From: Porphyrobacter sp. LM 6
Lineage (GTDB): Bacteria; Pseudomonadota; Alphaproteobacteria; Sphingomonadales; Sphingomonadaceae
Length of the DNA: 64,000 bases
NCBI RefSeq assembly: GCF_001720465.1
Contig: NZ_CP017113.1
Coordinates: 682,001 to 746,000, forward strand
Direction of reading: 5' to 3'
Part shown: piece by piece, positions 12,003-23,841 of the stretch
Position numbering within the stretch: position 1 is the stretch's first letter
Layout of the letters: every line of letters begins with the position of its first letter
Program-made: the position numbers and the translations under genes
The notes under the pieces: model-generated
The model's database searches: none
What the model was told of the DNA's origin: nothing
The model's input: the letters and a program-made list of their open reading frames with translations, nothing else

Positions 12003-14748
<2,746 letters not shown>

Positions 14749-14752
<4 letters not shown>

Positions 14753-15261
14753 TCCGCCGACTGCTCCTGATCGCCGCGCTGGTCATGGCGCCGCTGGCCG
14801 TGATGCCGGCGGCCCCGGCGCAGGCGCATCAGCAGAAGATCGCGATCAGCACGCTGATGGTGAACCCGCGCACCGGTGCGCTCGAACTGGTGCATCAGGT
14901 GCCGGTGCACGATGCCGAACACGCCTTGCGCAGACAGGGTGTGAAGGTCGCGGACATCATCGGCAGCGAAGCGAGCCGCGAGGCCTTTGCCCGTTACGTC
15001 ACGCGCCGTTTCCTGCTCGAAATCGACGGAGCGGCCGTCACCCCCGACTATGTCGGGAGCGAGATCAGCGGCGGCAGTCTGATGATTTATCAGGAGATCG
15101 CGGCCCCTGCGCCGGGCGCACAGATCACCGTCAATTCGCAGATCCTCACCGATGTCTGGGTGCGGCAGGAAAACCGGGTCAATATCGGACGCGGGACGGG
15201 GCTGGTGACCCTGCTGTTCTCCGCCGACAGCGGCCCGCAGAGCGCAACCTTGGCGCGCTGA
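14749..15261 (+). CDS. DUF6702 family periplasmic protein
   Basis: A 170-residue protein with a GTG start overlapping the peptidase stop (GTGA) and a signal peptide (LLLIAALVMAPLAVMPAAPAQA). The mature part begins HQQKIAISTLMVNPRTGALELVHQ and is rich in beta strands, as in DUF6702. Translational coupling to the M1 peptidase is typical of this family and suggests a partner or inhibitor role, but no function is known. Confidence 0.8.
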
Positions 15262-16062
15262 TCAGGCCCGCCGCCGCGCCGCCGGAAGGAGCTCGTCAGG
15301 CATGTCGAATTGCGCGCGCAGATCCGCGATCAGGGCGGGGCGTCCATAGCGATAGCCCTGCACATGGCGGCACCCGATCGCGCGCAGGAAGATTTCCTGT
15401 TCCTCGGTCTCGACCCCTTCGGCGACCACACGCAGGCCAAGGCTCTGGCTCATCTGCATGATCGCCTGCACGATCAGCCGCGACTGGTGATCCTCGCTGA
15501 TGCCGGAAATGAAGTCGCGGTCGATCTTGACCTTGTGGATTGGGAAGGCGCGCAGGTGCGTGAGCGAGGAAAACCCGGTGCCGAAATCATCAAGACAGAT
15601 GGTGAAGCCGCACTCGTCGAGCAATGCGAGCGCGGCATGCACTTGGCTGCGGGCATCGATCAGCATGGTTTCGGTCAGTTCGATAGTGATGTTGCGCGGG
15701 CTGAGCGCGCTATCATCGATCGCCTCGATCAGGTACCGCACGAAATCGCCGTGCCGCAGATCGGCTTCGGACAGGTTCAGCCCGATCCGGCAATCGCTGT
15801 CGATGAGTTCACGGATCGTCGGCCCATCGACGATTAATTGGTTAAGCATCACCCGCGATACCGGACGCTACAGTTCGGCATCAAGCAGCGCTGCAAACAC
15901 ATCGCTGCCTATCACCGGCGTGTCCAGGATCGCGAATTCATCACCGCTCCGGCGCGCCAGAAACACGCCCGGCTTGAGACCGTCGGACAATTGCTGCGAC
16001 ACGCCTTCGAGTACCCGTTCGCTCAGCAGATGGCTGGGTGTCTGGTCATGCGGTCGATTTGA
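15262..16062 (-). pseudogene. Broken GGDEF-EAL cyclic-di-GMP enzyme
   Basis: The frame 15262-15852 encodes the C-terminal two thirds of an EAL phosphodiesterase domain (NLSEADL, IELTETML, LDDFGTGFSSL, VKIDRDFI, VVAEGVET) but lacks the first part with the EAL motif. In the same frame upstream, after a TAG stop at 15868-15870, lies the end of a GGDEF domain (SHLLSERVLEGVSQQL, then RRSGDEFAIL in place of GGDEF), itself cut by a stop at 16063-16065. The link between the domains (roughly 60-80 residues of EAL) is gone. So this is the remnant of a GGDEF-EAL protein with an internal deletion and stop codons. The EAL part keeps the E and DDFG metal ligands but without the EAL strand it should be inactive. 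Confidence 0.8.
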
Positions 16063-16101
16063 CTAGATAATAGTTATGTAAGGCTGTCTTGGCATCCAAG
16101 T

Positions 16102-16159
16102 CGGTGCGGACAACGAGCCACGAGGCCAAATTATGCCCGACCATGGCTCGTCCGCACCG
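16102..16159. repeat. Imperfect intergenic inverted repeat
   Basis: Arms CGGTGCGGACAACGAGCCA (16102-16120) and TGGCTCGTCCGCACCG (16144-16159) are complementary apart from a three-base bulge, with a 23-base loop. The surrounding stretch 16063-16396 (about 330 bases, between the broken GGDEF-EAL gene and the pilin gene) shows no coding sequence I can support. Confidence 0.6.
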
Positions 16160-16396
16160 GGCTCTGCGCAGCGCAGTTGTCGGCGGTTATAGTGCCAATG
16201 CCAATCGCGTTCGGCTGTGATGCTCAGTCGCAATGCTGCCTCGCCCATGCAGATGCAGTGGTGAGGAGGGAGCCTGGCTGTGGGTAATGCAATTAATGCT
16301 GCTATTGCCGTGCCCTTTGAGCGACAATGTCGCGAGGTGCGTGAACCTTGAATGCGCCGCGCCGGGAGGGCGGCCGCCGATTCCATCGGTTGGCCC

Positions 16397-16594
16397 TTAA
16401 TTCATGGCCTCAGCCGCGTTCGCAGCGACGCCATCGTAAAGATCAGCTACGCCCATCCCCAGATAAGACATCGCTCCGATAAGTACGGCGGATATCACGG
16501 CAGCGATCAAGGCATATTCGATGGCCGTGGCGCCGGCTTGATCACGCGTCACGGCGATCAAAAATTGATGGATAGTTGCAAGGCCTTTTCGCAT
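16397..16594 (-). CDS. Flp-type (type IVb) pilin, orphan
   Basis: A 65-residue prepilin. GATAIEYALIAAVISAVLIG is the class signature: a short leader ending in Gly-Ala, then a mature N-terminus with Glu at position +5 and Tyr next to it, followed by the hydrophobic helix. It would be processed by a TadV/CpaA-type peptidase and assembled by a Tad system, none of which is in this window. GGGAG lies 10 bases ahead of ATG 16594. Confidence 0.88.
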   Translation of the reverse strand: MRKGLATIHQFLIAVTRDQAGATAIEYALIAAVISAVLIGAMSYLGMGVADLYDGVAANAAEAMN

Positions 16595-16984
16595 TATAAA
16601 TTACTCCCTCGAAGCTCATTCGCGATCGCTGTAGGTTATGGCAACTGCGCAAAAGGGTGTAATGGCTGATCGAAAGTATCAGAGGCGCGGCATCCGGTGC
16701 CAGACATTGGTGATCGTCGTATCGTCGATAACGGCCTAGCATGTACAGCGTTGCGAATTACCGGGCATTCGCACCTGTGGGCCTCGCCGCAACGACCCGA
16801 ACCTCCGGCACCGCGCTTGCGTCGCCTTTTCAAACTGGGTTGATCCTGGCGTTTGGTGCTAGGGCAAACGCGGCAGTGCGGGCCTTGGTTCCGAAAAGCA
16901 TGCAACTGACAAAATACGCCCCAGATGTTGCTTGCGCGACCAACAACCGCGCATCAGCCAAAGCCTTCAGGAGAAAATCATGAC
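16595..16984. other. Intergenic stretch without a recognisable gene
   Basis: Between the pilin and lipoprotein genes. It contains open frames of 80-90 codons on both strands, but none has a ribosome site, conserved-looking composition or family resemblance. The first 30 bases hold the pilin's ribosome-binding site. Confidence 0.5.
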
Positions 16985-17497
16985 TTAAAAAGGGGCCAAG
17001 TCTTGATCATCGTTCGGCGCCGCTTGAATGGCCGGCGCTGAATCAGACCGGAGGACTGCATTCCCAATGCGCTTGAAGGCATATTGATACATCATGGGGT
17101 CATTCACGATGAGTTCCGCTTTTGACGAACCGAGGGCGCCGCTCTTGATCACTTGCACGATCTTGATGCCCAGTTCGCTGCCATCGTTCTTTGGAAGGAT
17201 CAAGGCGTAAAACTTCAAATCCTTGTCCCTGATTGATCCCTTGTCCCCCGTGGCTCCCCTGAGGCCGCTGATCTGCCCTGTCGCCCGATCGACCACATCA
17301 AGCTTGTACCCCGCTTCGCGGAAGACGACCACCGTGCGGTCGAATGTCTCTTCGATCGGATCGGAATAGAAAAACCTTTGATAATTATTGTCGAGACTGA
17401 ATATTGATCTGTCAGGCTGTATCGCTGATCCACCAGCGCAAGCCGTCAAGCACGCACAGGCGCAAGTAATAAATCCCATCCGAAAAAAATTCGACAT
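16985..17497 (-). CDS. Putative lipoprotein of unknown function
   Basis: 170 residues. ATG 17497 has AGGAG upstream and opens a signal peptide ending in the lipobox LTAC (MGFITCACACLTAC), so the mature protein is probably lipid-anchored at Cys21. The mature part (EETFDRTVVVFREAGYKLDVVDRATGQISGLRG) suggests a small alpha/beta domain, but I do not recognise a family. A longer reading to 17551 is unlikely. Upstream sequence is clearly richer in A+T than the core genome. Confidence 0.7.
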   Translation of the reverse strand: MSNFFRMGFITCACACLTACAGGSAIQPDRSIFSLDNNYQRFFYSDPIEETFDRTVVVFREAGYKLDVVDRATGQISGLRGATGDKGSIRDKDLKFYALILPKNDGSELGIKIVQVIKSGALGSSKAELIVNDPMMYQYAFKRIGNAVLRSDSAPAIQAAPNDDQDLAPF

Positions 17498-17756
17498 TGA
17501 AAATTCTCCTAAAATTAAAAATGTAATGCACATGCAAAATTTGCATCTCATGGGATATCGAAAATGAATGCGAATATATCGCGAAAACCATTATAAGCCT
17601 TTGGGGTAAGCGATTTCAGATCCATCCGAGGTGATAGCTATGACCGATTAGAGAGATTGGTCGTGCCCGCGGCTTGTGATGGACGATCGCTCATGGTTGT
17701 GGCGAATTGGCACATAGCTGCGCAAGCTCTGGTTCATGGGCTATCGCCTGCCCCGG

Positions 17757-18476
17757 TCAGCGGCGCACCACCCAATCTGTGACGTCAAGCGCTCCGAGGA
17801 ATTTTATCGCTTCGAAAAGGCGGCCATTTTCTGCAGCCCAATGCAGTTGCAAGGCTAAAATTCCGACAATCTCGTCTTGCTGGCCGTTAGCGATGCTGGG
17901 CATTGGAGGTGCCGGAGGCAGTTGCCAGTCCGCCACGGATGTCGCAATCTTCTTGTAAAACGCCACCCATTGGGCGCCATGCGGCACTACAAGCCCCTCG
18001 CTGCGAAGGAAAAACATAAATATATCGACGAACTCATTGAAATTGATTTGCTCGTCACGGTCGAAAAACATGAATGTATCCCCAGATCGGTGGGTTTCAT
18101 TATAAATACGTTTCAAAGATCGTTGGAACAATGAGTCGATTCGGCTATTTCTTATGTTTGATACTAAAGATTTCCAATTGAGGATGTATTCATCAAAGGC
18201 TTCGTAGATGTCAGCATAAGAGCCAATGAAGTGACCTCTCGATTCGAATTCTTGCCGTGAGGGCATGCGAAGCGAGCTCTCGGACACATCATCGCAAAGA
18301 TTTTTGATGATCAGATCCCGCCCATTGTGACGCGCGAGCGGGCCTGGGCTGTCCTTGAATATCGCTCTTAACTGATAAAAGCTGGATAGAAACATGAGGG
18401 AATGCCGGACTCCCCAGTAGGACTCAGTCCAATCTTCACCTTCCCTGCGGGGATTTCGAAGTAACAAGGCATTCAT
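17757..18476 (-). CDS. Hypothetical protein, 239 residues
   Basis: Soluble, mostly helical by eye, no signal peptide or membrane segment. Start ATG 18476 has GAAGGA just upstream. I recognise no domain. FFDRDEQINFNEF superficially resembles an EF-hand loop but is two to three residues short, so calcium binding is not claimed. Aromatic- and Asn-rich composition and lower GC than the flanks point to recent transfer. The C-terminus (PPAPPMPSIANGQQDEIVG...ALDVTDWVVRR) follows a Pro-rich hinge. It is divergent from the PilZ-XRE gene across a 481-base AT-rich spacer. Confidence 0.6.
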   Translation of the reverse strand: MNALLLRNPRREGEDWTESYWGVRHSLMFLSSFYQLRAIFKDSPGPLARHNGRDLIIKNLCDDVSESSLRMPSRQEFESRGHFIGSYADIYEAFDEYILNWKSLVSNIRNSRIDSLFQRSLKRIYNETHRSGDTFMFFDRDEQINFNEFVDIFMFFLRSEGLVVPHGAQWVAFYKKIATSVADWQLPPAPPMPSIANGQQDEIVGILALQLHWAAENGRLFEAIKFLGALDVTDWVVRR

Positions 18477-18957
18477 TCCTTCACCTACCGTGCACTTACA
18501 AGCCTAACCGCATTGTTGGCGACACGCTCTCGTGCCGCCCAATGCAACGTTCAACAACACCCTCTTGGCCATGCCAAGCGACTAGCTCAAGGGCTTCTCA
18601 ATGGAGCCACCCCGGTCGCGCCAGTCCGCAACGAGCCCTTTTTTGGGGAGGGGCTGCTGGAGATCCCGCGTCCCGGTTCCGACTATAACTGAATAAGAAG
18701 ATTGTGGGAATTGTTTTTTGATTCAGAACCGTCTATGATACTGCAAGTAATAGAAAATTAGGCACCCGTATTTTTTAACTTTGTCCCATTGTTAGAAATG
18801 TTAGCTAACAATTTAATTAACAGTAGAAGTGTTATCTATCATGAATCATTGCGGATCATGATTGGCGTAATAAAAATACTGCCAAAAAATTTTATAATTT
18901 ATATTATGTAGAGTACAAATTAATAAATTCTCGTTTATGAAGAAATAAGGTGATTTA
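18477..18957. promoter_or_regulatory. AT-rich regulatory region upstream of the PilZ-XRE gene
   Basis: A non-coding spacer whose second half (about 18670-18957) is strikingly A+T-rich against the GC-rich genome. It holds a perfect 12-base palindrome TGTTAGCTAACA (18799-18810) nested with TTGTTAG/CTAACAA (18789-18811), and a second inverted repeat ATCATGA/TCATGAT (18838-18844 and 18856-18862). AAGGTG lies 6 bases before the ATG at 18958. These repeats are plausible operator sites for the XRE protein encoded immediately downstream; that is inference. Confidence 0.5.
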
Positions 18958-19605
18958 ATGAATGAACAAAAATACATCCAGTCTAGGCGATCCAGGCGCA
19001 AAATCCATTTCATGGCCGAATGTAAATTGAACAATCAGGAGATTGTCAAAGTCGCAATAAGGGATATCTCCGCCGGCGGAGTACTTTTAGAGGCGTCGGC
19101 GGCTCCCGATCTGAGGGATGGGTTCGTTTTGCGAATGCCAGGCGTTGGAGAGTTCGCTTGCAACGTCGTATGGCGAAGCGGCGCGCTGTTTGGTTGCTCT
19201 TTCGATCAGGAACTAACCCCCGGCATAATGGCGGCCGCCCAGCTAAGGGGAGCGCCGCTCAATCAGGCCGAGCAATTGCTGCCGGCGGCGTCTTTGGGTC
19301 CTGCCGGTGATACGTTGGGGTTGATTCTTCGGAATTTGCGCCGTCATGCTGGAATGACGCTAGATGAGGTGGCCTCTGCGCTCAACGTCAGCAAGCCGAC
19401 GATCTGGGCATGGGAAAAGGGTAAGGCGCGCCCGTTGCCGGCGCGGCTGAGTGCCATTGCGACCCTGTTCGACGTCGATGTTCAGACCCTCATGAAAACT
19501 AGCGAGCCAACCTCGAGTGCGGAGTTGATCGATCATTGCCGAACTCGCATTGCTGATGCCTTTGGCGCAGCGCCGACAGCAGTCCGGATTATTATCGAAG
19601 TGTAA
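18958..19605 (+). CDS. PilZ-XRE fusion protein: putative c-di-GMP-responsive transcription factor
   Basis: 215 residues in two domains. Residues ~8-85 form a PilZ domain: RRSRR gives the RxxxR c-di-GMP motif and IRDISAGGVLLE gives the D-x-S-x-x-G motif, both intact, and VVWRSGALFGCSF closes the barrel. Residues ~118-180 form an XRE/Cro-type helix-turn-helix (LILRNLRRHAGMTLDEVASALNVSKPTIWAWEKGKARP), with the recognition helix around SKPTIWAWE. The tail (ELIDHCRTRIADAFG) may aid dimerisation. No membrane segment. A cytoplasmic protein that binds c-di-GMP and DNA in one chain is an uncommon layout. The AT-rich, palindrome-bearing upstream region suggests autoregulation. Domain calls are by motif; ligand binding is inferred. 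Confidence 0.85.
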   Translation: MNEQKYIQSRRSRRKIHFMAECKLNNQEIVKVAIRDISAGGVLLEASAAPDLRDGFVLRMPGVGEFACNVVWRSGALFGCSFDQELTPGIMAAAQLRGAPLNQAEQLLPAASLGPAGDTLGLILRNLRRHAGMTLDEVASALNVSKPTIWAWEKGKARPLPARLSAIATLFDVDVQTLMKTSEPTSSAELIDHCRTRIADAFGAAPTAVRIIIEV

Positions 19606-19762
19606 GAGGCTCGCGGTTTGCGTCGGACAAGCGCGAAGGCGGGCGTAGCTTGGCCTCCGGGCACCTTTTTCGCATGGAAAATGTTGCCAAGCTGGCCATC
19701 CAACCTGTCGATGGCCGCATTTGATGCCGCACGGTTCTAAAATTTCCACACAGGTGAGACTG

Positions 19763-20239
19763 ATGTCGCGTCATTCGAAAAAACATATCCTCAGCGTACT
19801 CGATCAAAGATCAGCGACCCGTTACGCGATACACTTCCTGGCCGATGGCCTCGCTCCGCAAAGAAGCTTTGATGTATGCATAAGGTCCATTTCGGCCGAT
19901 GGCCTTGCGATTGAAACCTCAACCGAATTAAGGATCGGGACTGAATTTGAGCTGACACTTCCGATTTCGGGTCCCACGAAGGCCAAAGTGGTCTGGAATA
20001 ACGGGACCATCAGCGGCTGCCTCTTTGAGGCCCCCTTAGACATGGCCGTGCTCAGCGCTGTGCGCCTCAAGGCCCATCCGGCCTGTGCAGGCGGTGCTCG
20101 ATTGAATGAGCCGCTATCTACGATGGTGCAGCTCGCGGCCCCCGAAAGATGGCCTCGACGGGTTCGTGTCGCCATTCATATCCTTGGACCGCTTACAATC
20201 TGGGCGCTCATTGCGCTGCTTGCCAAACTGGTAAGCTAA
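19763..20239 (+). CDS. PilZ-domain protein with C-terminal membrane helix
   Basis: 158 residues from ATG 19763 (AGGTGAG upstream). Residues ~14-95 are a PilZ domain like that of the preceding gene (QRSATRYAIHFLADG carries RxxxR; VVWNNGTISGCLFE matches the end of the barrel). The second motif reads S-I-S-A-D-G, so the usual Asp/Asn is Ser, which may weaken c-di-GMP binding. A single hydrophobic helix (IHILGPLTIWALIALLAKLV) at the very end should anchor it in the inner membrane with the PilZ domain in the cytoplasm. It is 157 bases behind the PilZ-XRE gene and probably arose by duplication of the same PilZ module. Confidence 0.8.
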   Translation: MSRHSKKHILSVLDQRSATRYAIHFLADGLAPQRSFDVCIRSISADGLAIETSTELRIGTEFELTLPISGPTKAKVVWNNGTISGCLFEAPLDMAVLSAVRLKAHPACAGGARLNEPLSTMVQLAAPERWPRRVRVAIHILGPLTIWALIALLAKLVS

Positions 20240-20307
20240 CGGATTTATCCGAGGCATAAGCGAGACCATCTCATTGCGCTGGCATTCCCTGCAATCAAGT
20301 GGCCGGC

Positions 20308-20754
20308 TCATTTGCGCCCAAGCATGCCATATGGCGTAACGATACAAGGGGTGCCATTTTCTTTGAGCTCCTTGAGCGCCACCCACGAGAGATTCATCCA
20401 AATGCCTTGAGTATCAATTACGTCCGGCGCGATGTTTCTTAAGGTCGTTCGCATGCTAGGCGCCCAGTGAAAATTAGCGGGCCCATAGCTGGGATGCGCA
20501 TGGACTTTCCGACCCCAGTACCGAGTATATGGTGGGGAAACAGGGTCTCTAATCCCAGGAACATGCGGATCGACACACGTTACCTCAGTCAAACCGTCGA
20601 CCATCAGGGGAACTGCCGATGAAAGCCCCCCGGCAGCATCAGAAAGCAGCTCTTGCAGTATGGCAACCTTGACTACAGTTTGAACTCCGGGGGTCTCGTC
20701 GGCTGAGGCGATTGCCCCGGATTTTTCTCTGATGCGAGCTTTGAGCATCAGCAT
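20308..20754 (-). pseudogene. Glycosyltransferase family 4, N-terminal fragment
   Basis: 148 codons with the N-terminal Rossmann half of a GT4 enzyme: KVAILQELLSDAAGGLSSAV (the glycine loop), then PDVIDTQGIWMNLSWVALK and CIVTPYGMLGRK, matching the usual DVIHxHGLW...VVTPHGML. The reading ends right after this motif, so the linker and the whole donor-binding C-terminal half are missing. It starts 10 bases after the end of the next remnant, as in a tandem glycosyltransferase operon. Confidence 0.75.
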
Positions 20755-20764
20755 CGTCTTTTGG

Positions 20765-21649
20765 TCACGAGACGGTTTCAATGACTTGGCGCTGCATCTT
20801 GCGCAAAAGTGCCTGGTCCCATGGCCGCAGGGGTCCTTTGCGCGGGGCCATGTGTGCACAATCGACTGCGGCACGCAAGCCAGCCCCGAACCGTTCAGGT
20901 CCCCAGTCCCGGATTGCGTCCGCCGCCGCAAACCCCATCGACGCACGCTGCTCCTCGTCCATTTCGGATATCGTGATATTTGGGCGCAAGCGCTCGCCAA
21001 CCAAAATTATCACGCGCGTACTCCCAGCGCCGCCAAGCACTCGCGGGGTCCTCGGAAAAGAGATCCTGGCGTTGCGCTAGCAATACAGCGAGCGCCCCCG
21101 GTTTCGAGAAGTCTCCATAGGCTACCTCATGACCGTTCAGAAAACGACCCACGGGATAGTCGTGGCAGAAGACCGGCACGCCCTGCGACAGGGCTTCGAT
21201 GTAAACGCGGCCGAACCCTTCCGCAAGCGAACCCAAGACGAACACGTCAGCGGCCGCGTACTAGGTCGGCACCTCGCTTGGCGGGACCGAGCGCGCCACC
21301 ATGCCGCCCTCGCAGAGTTTGGATCGCGCTTCCGCTACGACCTCACCCGAGGCCTCATCCATGGCCCCGATCATCGCCAGGAAGGGGCGCGGCTCGGACA
21401 TGCGTGCAATTTCGTCCGCGACGTAATCCATGCGCTTGTGTTGCCGCGCGATCCAGCCGACCGACAAGACGATCGGACGATCCGCAGGCAAGCCAAGGGT
21501 CTGACGAGCCTGCTGGCGCCGAATAATCCTCGCAACAGGTTTACCAGGATCCTGCTCTTCGACGCTTACCTGCGCGCCGGTCGGGCCGGAGGGGTGGTGA
21601 CTGAGGCGGTGGCACTAGATCGATTGCGTACCCACTTCGAACGGCCGCA
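20765..21649 (-). pseudogene. Glycosyltransferase family 4, C-terminal half with stop and frameshift
   Basis: Reading leftwards: LGLPADRPIVLSVGWIARQHKRMDYV (start of the GT4 C-domain), EARSKL...VPPSEVPT, then an in-frame TAG at 21261-21263, then YAAADVFVLGSLAEGFGRVYIEAL (the nucleotide-sugar site with its E-x7-E pattern) and ARDNFGWRALAP. A frameshift near 20970 moves the last part (MDEEQRASMGFAAADAIRDWGPERFGAGL) into another frame, ending at 20765. The N-terminal acceptor half is absent; the frame is closed by TAA at 21650-21652. At least one nonsense and one frameshift mutation make this a clear pseudogene. Confidence 0.8.
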
Positions 21650-22660
21650 TTAAGCTGCGTTTTCGTTGTCAGCCTCTGTCTGATGATCTTGCCGCAGCGA
21701 CGGTTGGGAAACTCTCGTAAGTAGAGCCGGATAAGGACCGCCGCCTTCGGGCACGGTTAACCCGCAAGCAGCCTGGTTTGCAGTGGGGCTATTTTCGAAC
21801 GGATGGCTGTTGATGAGAATCGTCGTTGACGGGCTGGGTTTCTTCCCATCGATGAAGTGAAGGCAACGCCTAGGCCGGGGGCAAATCGAGTTGCTCAAGG
21901 AAATGAAAGCGATGCTCTGGAGGTCTTTGGGCGGAGCGATACTCGACGCAGATTGCCGTATCACTTTCAGACTGATTGTGTGGTCTTTTTGATCCTTCGT
22001 TAGAGCTGCACCCAAGCGAATGCGCCAAGTGCAAATGCTCCCACGAGGACCACAATGATGAGGTCCATTTCCCACCACGTCCCATTGCGTGCTTTTTCAT
22101 CCGAGATCCCAAGCAGTCCGGCAAGGGCGGATCTCAAATGATAGAGTGGACCATCTCTGCGCATTCTGTGGATTGTATCGCAACTCAAAAAGTTCCTCCA
22201 GTCAACAAGCGCAATCAGCTTGGTGATACCTTACTAAGAGCCAATGATCGAAATGTGGGAAGCAAAACGACCCTTGGTATCACGACATTCCGCTCGACTT
22301 CCCGTGCACTGCAAGCATTGGTGCTGTCACTGAATGGTGAGCCCTCGCGTCGTCGAAGCGATCATTGACGGTCGCCAGCCCGCGCGCCTTGACCGCAGGC
22401 ACCTGCTCGAGGCTGACCTTCCTCTCTGCTGGCATGCGCAGGAGCGAATGCTGGGGTTCCCTGCGTGATGCAGCGCCGCCGCACTTGCAGTCAGTTTTTT
22501 CTAGACAGAGATATGGGGAGAAGAGAGCCGGTAGACCCGGCTCTTACTGCGTGCTCTGACTCACACCCGGCTTAAGGCGAGGCGAAAATCCCGCAGAACT
22601 GCGCCATTTTCGTCGCAGGGTATGCCCGAAGGCGATTCCTGGATTTCGGGAGAGACTGTT
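21650..22660. other. About 1 kb without a supportable gene
   Basis: Between the glycosyltransferase remnant and tRNA-Leu. Frames of up to 142 codons exist on the minus strand, but none shows a domain, start signal or consistent composition. A 22-codon minus-strand frame at 22000-22065 would encode a single hydrophobic helix, too short to support. A small hairpin AGAGCCGG/CCGGCTCT lies at 22524-22544. The stretch probably consists of decayed accessory DNA. Confidence 0.5.
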
Positions 22661-22747
22661 TGGTGCGGTCGAGAAGACTCGAACTTCCACGGGCTTTCGC
22701 CCACAACGACCTCAACGTTGCGCGTCTACCAGTTCCGCCACGACCGC
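22661..22747 (-). tRNA. tRNA-Leu(GAG)
   Basis: On the minus strand GCGGTCG (22741-22747) pairs with CGACCGC (22665-22671). The anticodon arm is CAACG-TTGAGGT-CGTTG (anticodon GAG), followed by the long class II variable arm TGGGCGAAAGCCCG, a T-arm with GTTCGAGTC and an encoded CCA. Its 3' end faces the degraded accessory region. Confidence 0.96.
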
Positions 22748-22854
22748 ACTCGGGTTTTCCGGGGCAGCCTGATGCTGGCCCCGCGGTAGGAGCGCGCCAC
22801 TAGCAAGGGGTTCTGCCCTGTGCAAGCGCTTTGACGCCTTGCCGTGATTACGGG

Positions 22855-23841
22855 TTAATTGGGTGCCCAGCCAAGGTCAGCCACGGCTGCGCCCGGCGGG
22901 ATATTGGCGATCGCTACGGTCACCGTGACAGTCTCGCCCGGGGCCAGCTGGGTCTTGGCCGGAACCACCACCCAGTCACCCACCTTGCGTTCGCGCTGGT
23001 CGGAGAAGACCACCAGCAGATTGGGCACATCCAGCGAGGTGCGCGCGGTGTTGGTAATCGTCCCGCGCACACGGAAGATGGTTTCACCGTTCGGCAGCGC
23101 TTCGGGGCGTTGATCCTCCACAGGGAAATCGAGCTCGAGGCCGGGGCGACCAATGCCGAAGGTCGGGCGGTCGATCGGCACCCATTCGGGCAGGCCATAG
23201 TAGTTGACCGCGGCAATCGTCCCGGTGGCCAGCACCGCGAAAATCACCGCCGCAATCGTCCACATCTTCAGCGTATTGCGCCGCCGGGTGAATGGCGGAC
23301 GGAAATCGAAGCACGATTCCTGGTCGGCGGCGCTGTAATCATCATCGCCAAAGGGCGGATCATCGACAGTCCCCGCGCCCGAGGCATTGTCGCTGAAGGC
23401 AGCAGGCGCATCCATTTGCGGGGCGATGCGCGGTTCGGGGTCGCTGGTCGCCTGCTGGCTCAATCCCCGGCGCAGGGCGCGCACGGCGATCGAGGCATCG
23501 TCGATACTGGCGCCTTCGGTTTCGGGATTGTCGGCTGCACGCCAATGGCTGACCGATGGGCGCTCTGCCACGGGCGCGCTCTCCGCTGCGGGTGCGGGCT
23601 GCGACGGTGCCGGCGTTGGCGCCGGTGCCGGGTGCGGGGCAGGGGCCTCGGCCACTGGGGCGGAAGCGCCTACGTCCTGACGGGCGGCGGCCGCTTCATC
23701 AGGGTAGCGCAGATCGAGAAGCGGCGGTTCCTGGAACCAGCTGTGCTTGCACTTGGCGCAGCGCACGGTGCGCCCTTCGCTGCCGATGGCAGCATCGGGC
23801 ACCGCATAGCGCGTACCGCAGGCTGGGCAGGCGATGATCAT
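22855..23841 (-). CDS. MJ0042-type zinc-ribbon membrane protein (DUF3426-like)
   Basis: 328 residues. It begins with a zinc ribbon (IIACPACGTRYAVPDAAIG...VRCAKCKHSW; CxxC...CxxC). A Pro/Ala-rich, acidic linker of about 120 residues follows, then one membrane helix (TLKMWTIAAVIFAVLATGTI, about residue 205-225) and a periplasmic beta domain (RVRGTITNTARTSLDVPNLLVVFSD) of DUF3426 type. ATG 23841 has AGGG upstream and places the ribbon at the N-terminus. It is divergent from ftsE, a constant neighbour in sphingomonads. Confidence 0.85.
   Translation of the reverse strand: MIIACPACGTRYAVPDAAIGSEGRTVRCAKCKHSWFQEPPLLDLRYPDEAAAARQDVGASAPVAEAPAPHPAPAPTPAPSQPAPAAESAPVAERPSVSHWRAADNPETEGASIDDASIAVRALRRGLSQQATSDPEPRIAPQMDAPAAFSDNASGAGTVDDPPFGDDDYSAADQESCFDFRPPFTRRRNTLKMWTIAAVIFAVLATGTIAAVNYYGLPEWVPIDRPTFGIGRPGLELDFPVEDQRPEALPNGETIFRVRGTITNTARTSLDVPNLLVVFSDQRERKVGDWVVVPAKTQLAPGETVTVTVAIANIPPGAAVADLGWAPN

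Follow-up and report, generated by a model that had tools for sequence, protein, structure and literature searches.

A diverged PilZ-XRE protein of Porphyrobacter sp. LM 6 as a likely one-component c-di-GMP transcription factor

Does a single chain that joins a PilZ domain to an XRE helix-turn-helix act as a one-component transcription factor that responds to c-di-GMP? This question is raised by a gene at positions 18958-19605 (forward strand) of a 64,000-nucleotide stretch of the Porphyrobacter sp. LM 6 genome, hereafter called the window. A sequence-only reading of this DNA had proposed a 215-residue open reading frame with both domains in one chain. The frame is present at these coordinates, and the encoded protein (P0001) exceeds the Pfam cut-offs for PilZ (PF07238; residues 8-88, 18979-19221, 34.3 bits against 22.5) and for an XRE region at residues 120-181 (19315-19500), in which HTH_31 (residues 120-175, 46.2 bits against 27), HTH_3 (residues 124-176, 43.1 bits against 23), HTH_19 (33.2 bits) and HTH_26 (25.3 bits) are all accepted. 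The presumed recognition helix is SKPTIWAWE (residues 145-153, 19390-19416), and the chain ends in a tail (residues 187-215, 19516-19602) that is conserved among relatives (CRxRIA...VRIxIE) and matches no Pfam family.

The predicted structure agrees with this domain content. An AF2 model built from an alignment of 30 sequences has a mean pLDDT of 82.6 and a pTM of 0.45, values that give fair confidence in each domain but not in their mutual arrangement; the N-terminal segment with the arginine cluster is of low confidence (pLDDT 44 for residues 1-10 and 65 for residues 11-20). The model contains both a beta-barrel and a helix-turn-helix fold. The barrel is predicted to be of the PilZ type: Foldseek ranks Alg44 PilZ-c-di-GMP complexes first (TM by target about 0.55), followed by BcsA and MapZ and, lower, by PlzA, YcgR and MrkH (5kec). 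The helix-turn-helix part of the model matches DdrO, SinR and ClgR. MrkH was not among the 50 structure matches listed in a PDB alignment search, which is no sign of difference, and a PilZ-only profile gave no significant match to PDB sequences, the best PilZ chain being PA4608 at E 1.4.

We next consider how far this architecture extends. At E <= 1e-3 the window protein matches 65 other proteins, 57 of which have a precomputed PilZ label beside their helix-turn-helix labels, and it matches a profile of the family over positions 11-224 of 224 (E 6.1e-86), being itself one of the 30 profile rows. The fusion is real and, rather than being peculiar to this locus, common in the lineage, as 108 of 114 genomes of the genus (its own included) have a match at E <= 1e-3. 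Two of these (G065 and G090) show weak matches only, near 1e-4. The best match is strong (2.7e-24 or better) in 106 of the 114, although in G054 it spans only the helix-turn-helix and tail. Of 397 genomes sampled from the family, 69 have a match at E <= 1e-15, spread over 21 of 96 genera. A scan of named genomes gave 161 loci, the best 80 of which were kept for neighbour counts, from Erythrobacter, Porphyrobacter, Altererythrobacter, Qipengyuania, Pelagerythrobacter, Novosphingobium and relatives. When at most seven candidates per genome were scored, a sample of the class (385 genomes) gave full-length matches in two genomes only, both of the same genus, and a third match from another family over the helix-turn-helix only, while long matches in a sample of the phylum (398 genomes) were confined to the same taxonomic family. 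No full-length PilZ-XRE protein was thus found outside that family among the 385 and 398 genomes, samples in which this scoring may have missed some. PilZ-XRE is not unique to the window: it is a family conserved across Erythrobacter and Novosphingobium relatives, real, well delimited and apparently uncharacterised.

The presumed recognition helix of the DNA-binding head hardly varies among these proteins. The stretch S145-E153, SKPT[VI]WAWE, is identical in 151 of 151 alignment rows except for I149 in place of V in the window copy, an identity that is partly built in because the 80 named loci were found with patterns taken from this stretch and a script filter required it; the same stretch occurs in 31 of the 31 best-scoring loci from genome searches made without patterns. 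The head and tail also occur by themselves: among eight extra stretches, three (L194, L195 and L196) encode the helix-turn-helix and tail with no Pfam PilZ match, one (L199) encodes a full PilZ-XRE protein and four gave nothing under the pattern used. An XRE-tail unit without PilZ is as expected if PilZ is an added sensor.

The genome of Porphyrobacter sp. LM 6 itself contains a second full-length member at C1:86425-87090 (L149, 6426-7091; L010 in the tree), hereafter the standard copy. Its identity is 44% with the window copy (residues 30-214) and 61% with P0049, an Erythrobacter dokdonensis 'helix-turn-helix domain-containing protein', and its PilZ domain is accepted by Pfam at 31.7 bits. 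A family search gave at least 12 PilZ matches in this genome, a lower bound since that search missed the PilZ domain of the standard copy. Domain order, recognition stretch, C-terminal tail and the second PilZ motif are alike in the window copy, the standard copy and the orthologues of the latter. The window copy differs from the standard copy in S9 for R9 and RDIS for HNIS, and also in having no downstream PAS-GGDEF gene, no CtrA-like box and low-GC surroundings. In a tree of 95 thinned rows, made by a quick method with eight rows left out beforehand and with many weak forks, the window protein and its nearest homologue, P0003, form a pair of their own (support 100) whose stem measures 2.03 changes per column, whereas the standard copy falls among the Erythrobacter and Porphyrobacter members. 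One other genome in the genus listing (G072) has two matches over PilZ and helix-turn-helix, and in no other genome is such a match more than 51% identical to the window copy. These comparisons make the window gene a second paralogue that has diverged strongly, and what is special to it is this divergence and its place in the genome.

Whether the diverged barrel still binds c-di-GMP depends on two motifs. The second, D/NxSxxG, is present as DISAGG (D36-I-S38-A-G-G41; 19063-19080). The first is represented by RRSRR (R10-RSR-R14; 18985-18999), an RxxxR string that lies one residue off the usual register of the family alignment, R9-xxx-R13, as the window copy reads S9 R10 R11 S12 R13 R14. The c-di-GMP site had been called intact; DxSxxG is, while the first arginine is displaced by one residue. 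For motif counts, 176 sequences were reduced to 151 unique rows and then, after 6 short or stretch-lacking rows were dropped, to 145. D/NxSxxG is found in 144 of the 145, an RxxxR string near R13 in 138 and the usual register in 118; the rows with no RxxxR are L015, L079, L089 and P0003, plus L025, L035 and P0041, whose starts are missing or mis-set. Position 13 is arginine in all 142 of the 151 rows that have a residue there.

A structural comparison places these arginines on a characterised receptor. In the alignment of the model to VCA0042 (2rde_B) the first pair is model residue 10 with residue 137, so that, if the alignment is ungapped there, R13 pairs with R140 and S9 with R136. VCA0042 is the Vibrio cholerae protein PlzD (according to a table in PMC10519070), in which, according to the available text of PMC10653909, R136 and R140 touch guanine and R140A abolishes binding. 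On an ungapped alignment the window copy would thus have kept the essential arginine, R13, with the other displaced by one residue in a flexible segment. With D36, S38, G41 and R13 in place and the first arginine shifted by one, we infer c-di-GMP as the ligand, and binding by the window protein is likely, though not certain.

It is also possible, although a good deal less probable, that the barrel has lost c-di-GMP binding and that the protein is a constitutive XRE competitor at the sites of the standard paralogue. The serine at position 9, the very long stem shared with P0003, the unchanged recognition stretch and the missing PAS-GGDEF neighbour would all fit such a protein. So would P0003, which is 57-59% identical to the window protein and has lost both motifs (RGAR and YISIGG), so the lineage of the window copy may not need the ligand. 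Against this, the window protein retains R10, R13 and R14 as well as DxSxxG, and its arrangement is not peculiar to it: R9 is absent with R10 and R13 present in 24 of the 151 rows, namely the window copy, P0003, four others and all 18 Novosphingobium-named loci; each of these 18 loci retains a PAS-GGDEF neighbour.

That neighbour is nearly constant at the standard loci. In 79 of the best 80 named loci (the exception is L088) the pilZ-XRE gene is followed on its own strand, at a distance of no more than 1.5 kb, by a PAS-GGDEF homologue, the domains having been assigned by Pfam for the protein of one locus (L028) and the homologues elsewhere by tblastn. The gap between the pilZ-XRE stop codon and the earliest possible start of the partner has a median of 227 nt (range -4 to 956; 78 loci measured). 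Among standard loci with enough flank, 55 of 78 have lysC on the upstream side and 46 of 73 have purT on the downstream side, and 19 of the 20 loci with neither gene nearby still keep the PAS-GGDEF neighbour, which indicates that the pilZ-XRE/GGDEF pair outlasts its surroundings. An active diguanylate cyclase was considered for the partner and dropped: all 79 homologues have a degenerate GG[DE]EF motif at the position given by tblastn alignment (DGERF in 29, GSERF in 14, the rest varied), and the partner of the standard copy in Porphyrobacter sp. LM 6 has DGERF. The partner is therefore probably non-catalytic. An RxxD c-di-GMP I-site stands at the right distance before the degenerate motif in 17 of the 79, and in this part of the family the partner may perhaps be a c-di-GMP receptor; the other 62 have no I-site at the expected place. 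Given the degenerate motif and these 62, the linkage is no proof of c-di-GMP synthesis, and it ties the family to c-di-GMP only in part.

The DNA upstream of the standard gene points to a probable regulator. Within 150 nt before the gene, CTAA-N7-TTAA occurs on either strand in 25 of 63 loci against 0.43 expected (200 shuffles), while CTAA/TTAA at all other spacings from 2 to 13 occurs in at most 4 of the 63; as the 63 are a thinned subset of 98 upstream stretches, shared descent inflates the counts but affects the spacing preference less. TTAACCAT is found before 17 of the 63 genes against 0.16 expected and exact TTAA-N7-TTAA before 0 of 63; the standard copy of Porphyrobacter sp. LM 6 has TTAACCAT as well. 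The available text of PMC6180460 gives TTAA(N7)TTAA as the full CtrA site and TTAACCAT as a variant of it. It is therefore a fair inference that CtrA controls the standard gene, through a site with C at its first position. Upstream of the window copy there is no such N7 pair, and no TTAACCAT in 18601-18957.

The DNA between pilZ-XRE and PAS-GGDEF at several standard loci (L028, 6628-6880; L031, L032, L060 and others) includes an AT-rich block that is strongly conserved (TATGGTAAAC ... TGATTCGTTTTTTAGTC ... CTAAC ... GTTAG) and contains long inverted repeats. Folding this intergenic stretch as RNA gave z-scores from -0.64 to -6.10 in 7 sequences, the value of -0.64 being that of Porphyrobacter sp. 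LM 6, whose stretch was cut in another register. RNAalifold gave 0 pairs with 37 sequences and 23 pairs, 2 of them with a double change, with 16 sequences, and Rfam had no match in the stretch at 6 loci. With folding strong in some sequences and covariation weak, a structured RNA here is no more than a possibility.

The window copy has upstream DNA of its own kind. The sequence-only reading had described this region as AT-rich and palindrome-bearing, and so it is: 18670-18957 has 29.5% GC against 64.8% for the window and contains inverted repeats, among them a perfect 12-bp palindrome, TGTTAGCTAACA, at 18799-18810, which ends 147 nt ahead of the start codon and is a candidate operator. Within the genome its core, GTTARYTAAC, is confined to the window site (a reversed control pattern has 4 matches per strand), and a regulon drawn from this core was therefore rejected; the standard copy lacks the core. 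The core also occurs in 5 of 63 pilZ-XRE/GGDEF intergenic stretches against 0.14 expected. This is suggestive, and we regard GTTARYTAAC as a candidate autoregulatory site only.

On this evidence the diverged PilZ-XRE protein of the window likely works as a one-component transcription factor, in which c-di-GMP in the PilZ barrel would alter the DNA binding of an XRE dimer. The observed basis is its domain content, its predicted folds, its family membership, its divergence, the base composition of the gene, unlike that of resident genes, and the place of the gene in a variable stretch at tRNA-Leu. In the mechanism that we propose, c-di-GMP would bind the barrel with the arginine cluster closing over it, the C-terminal tail would be the part of the dimer that holds the two XRE heads together, and binding would shift the relation of these heads on palindromic DNA. 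The first candidate site is TGTTAGCTAACA in the gene's own promoter; its position ahead of the start codon would make binding there autoregulatory. With a presumed recognition helix that is almost unchanged, the window copy would reach sites of the kind that the standard paralogue reads, and as the head is that of the standard regulator, it could plausibly act there as a competitor or as a second, additive input.

The place of the gene bears on two further explanations. Between 15974 and 22660 the GC content is 54.2%, and outside this stretch the window has 66.0%; within the stretch GC falls to 42% around the start of the gene, and third-position GC is 0.61 in the gene against 0.79-0.86 in three resident genes. 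Of six relatives compared, five are homologous on the left up to 15906 or 15907 and one up to 15198, and two have a short extra homologous fragment within 15911-15973; by blastn homology resumes in all six at 22653-22661, at the 3' end of a tRNA-Leu(GAG) gene (22661-22747, reverse strand). On the left the stretch adjoins the remnant of a GAF-PAS-GGDEF-EAL gene (15262-15973, reverse strand), of which the C-terminal EAL part (profile positions 82-236 of 236) and a short further fragment are left. Full homologues have 733 aa (L174), in a GAF-PAS-GGDEF-EAL gene that begins 142 nt from the tRNA, and 750 aa by its frame (L177), with other genes between gene and tRNA. Sixty-one genomes were compared for the distance between the flanking genes, both of which lie on one contig in only part of them. 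Three genomes (G038, G067 and G082) have 4.2 kb where the window has 9.25 kb, and in others the distance is larger (for instance 26 kb in G004 and 39 kb in G111). Low GC, homology breaks and the remnant indicate a variable stretch beside a lost c-di-GMP-enzyme gene, and one that was probably acquired. As for signs of classical integration, no repeat of the tRNA end of the attL/attR kind was found among direct repeats of at least 14 nt in 14500-23200. A Flp/Fap-type pilin gene of 65 aa also lies within the stretch (16397-16594, reverse strand).

Directly downstream of the window copy, in place of a PAS-GGDEF gene, is a 158-aa PilZ protein (19763-20239, forward strand; Pfam 28.4 bits) with a C-terminal hydrophobic stretch, judged by eye and not by a transmembrane program. 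Its first motif is in register (RSATR) and its second, SISADG, is degenerate, with neither D nor N. The neighbouring PilZ-membrane gene of the first reading is thus present, with one motif short of the usual form. The 'dedicated c-di-GMP module' that the reading drew from this gene and the upstream region finds no support at this locus: the conserved GGDEF-type neighbour belongs to the standard paralogue and has a degenerate GGDEF motif, and the second motif of the PilZ-membrane protein lacks D/N.

A low-GC variable stretch at a tRNA might suggest an island-maintenance or antitoxin-like XRE regulator, with the barrel as a protein-interaction surface, perhaps for the neighbouring PilZ-membrane protein. 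HigA antitoxins are indeed among the structural matches that span the helix-turn-helix and tail (rmsd 5-8 A), and the neighbour's PilZ domain matches the PilZ-XRE profile at E 2.8e-20. We consider this improbable, as those ORFs of the stretch that were scanned include no recognisable integrase or toxin, and most standard copies are flanked by lysC and purT, which are conserved genes of the chromosome. Still more improbable is a decaying, non-functional copy: the EAL gene is a remnant and a neighbouring GT4-like glycosyltransferase gene lies in pieces in different frames (20311-21491, reverse strand), but both PilZ genes are intact ORFs and the window copy keeps the helix-turn-helix residues that are invariant in the family.

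How does the preferred reading, a c-di-GMP-responsive PilZ-XRE factor, compare with known systems? The PilZ domains of Alg44, BcsA and YcgR/VCA0042 share fold and motif positions with the window protein, but they act in polysaccharide synthesis or motility and are not known to have a DNA-binding domain. BldD has an XRE-type helix-turn-helix and binds c-di-GMP without PilZ, through the signature R-x-D-x8-R-x-x-D, which by eye is absent from the window protein, as no Arg has an Asp at +2. BldD, from Streptomyces, is a c-di-GMP-binding transcription factor (PMC4151990, available text). The c-di-GMP transcription factors named in the available parts of two reviews have many unrelated ligand folds, MrkH being the PilZ-based one, and the layout of the window protein differs from them all, in keeping with the sequence-only reading. 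MrkH of Klebsiella pneumoniae (PMC3161979, available text) resembles the window protein in its PilZ fold match (5kec; Foldseek match undivided between the MrkH halves), and the XRE helix-turn-helix of the window protein apparently stands in place of the MrkH-type DNA-binding half; the available part of a 2025 review calls the DNA-binding domain of MrkH novel against the canonical helix-turn-helix of the others. For the genus itself, the nearest case described in the available texts is mPilZ-1753 of Erythrobacter flavus 21-3, a PilZ protein of 123 aa that binds c-di-GMP and targets the enzyme TsdA, with no helix-turn-helix mentioned there (PMC10267684, PMC12172448). In the texts on PilZ and c-di-GMP regulators covered here we found no description of a PilZ-XRE regulator; PilZ effectors and XRE regulators are each known, and none of these texts reports their combination.

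A bolder reading, which we put forward as speculative, is that a PilZ sensor, a canonical XRE repressor head and a dimer tail form a whole class of c-di-GMP transcription factors of which we found no description. In sphingomonads this class would belong to the CtrA cell-cycle network and have as its partner a non-catalytic PAS-GGDEF protein, which in part of the family would be a c-di-GMP receptor through its I-site; mobile stretches like the one in the window would then bring in copies whose head is unchanged and whose ligand site is re-tuned, so that a fixed set of operators receives a different second-messenger input. A PilZ sensor on a canonical XRE head would be about the simplest possible c-di-GMP switch, and a genome with two paralogues that share a head but differ in their sensors offers a ready test of how PilZ occupancy affects DNA binding. 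Elsewhere in the Porphyrobacter sp. LM 6 genome, PilZ and GGDEF matches in same-strand 743-aa frames at C1:2194297-2195820 apparently belong to one GGDEF-PilZ protein, and two PilZ matches lie in tandem in a 278-aa frame at C1:354263-354811.
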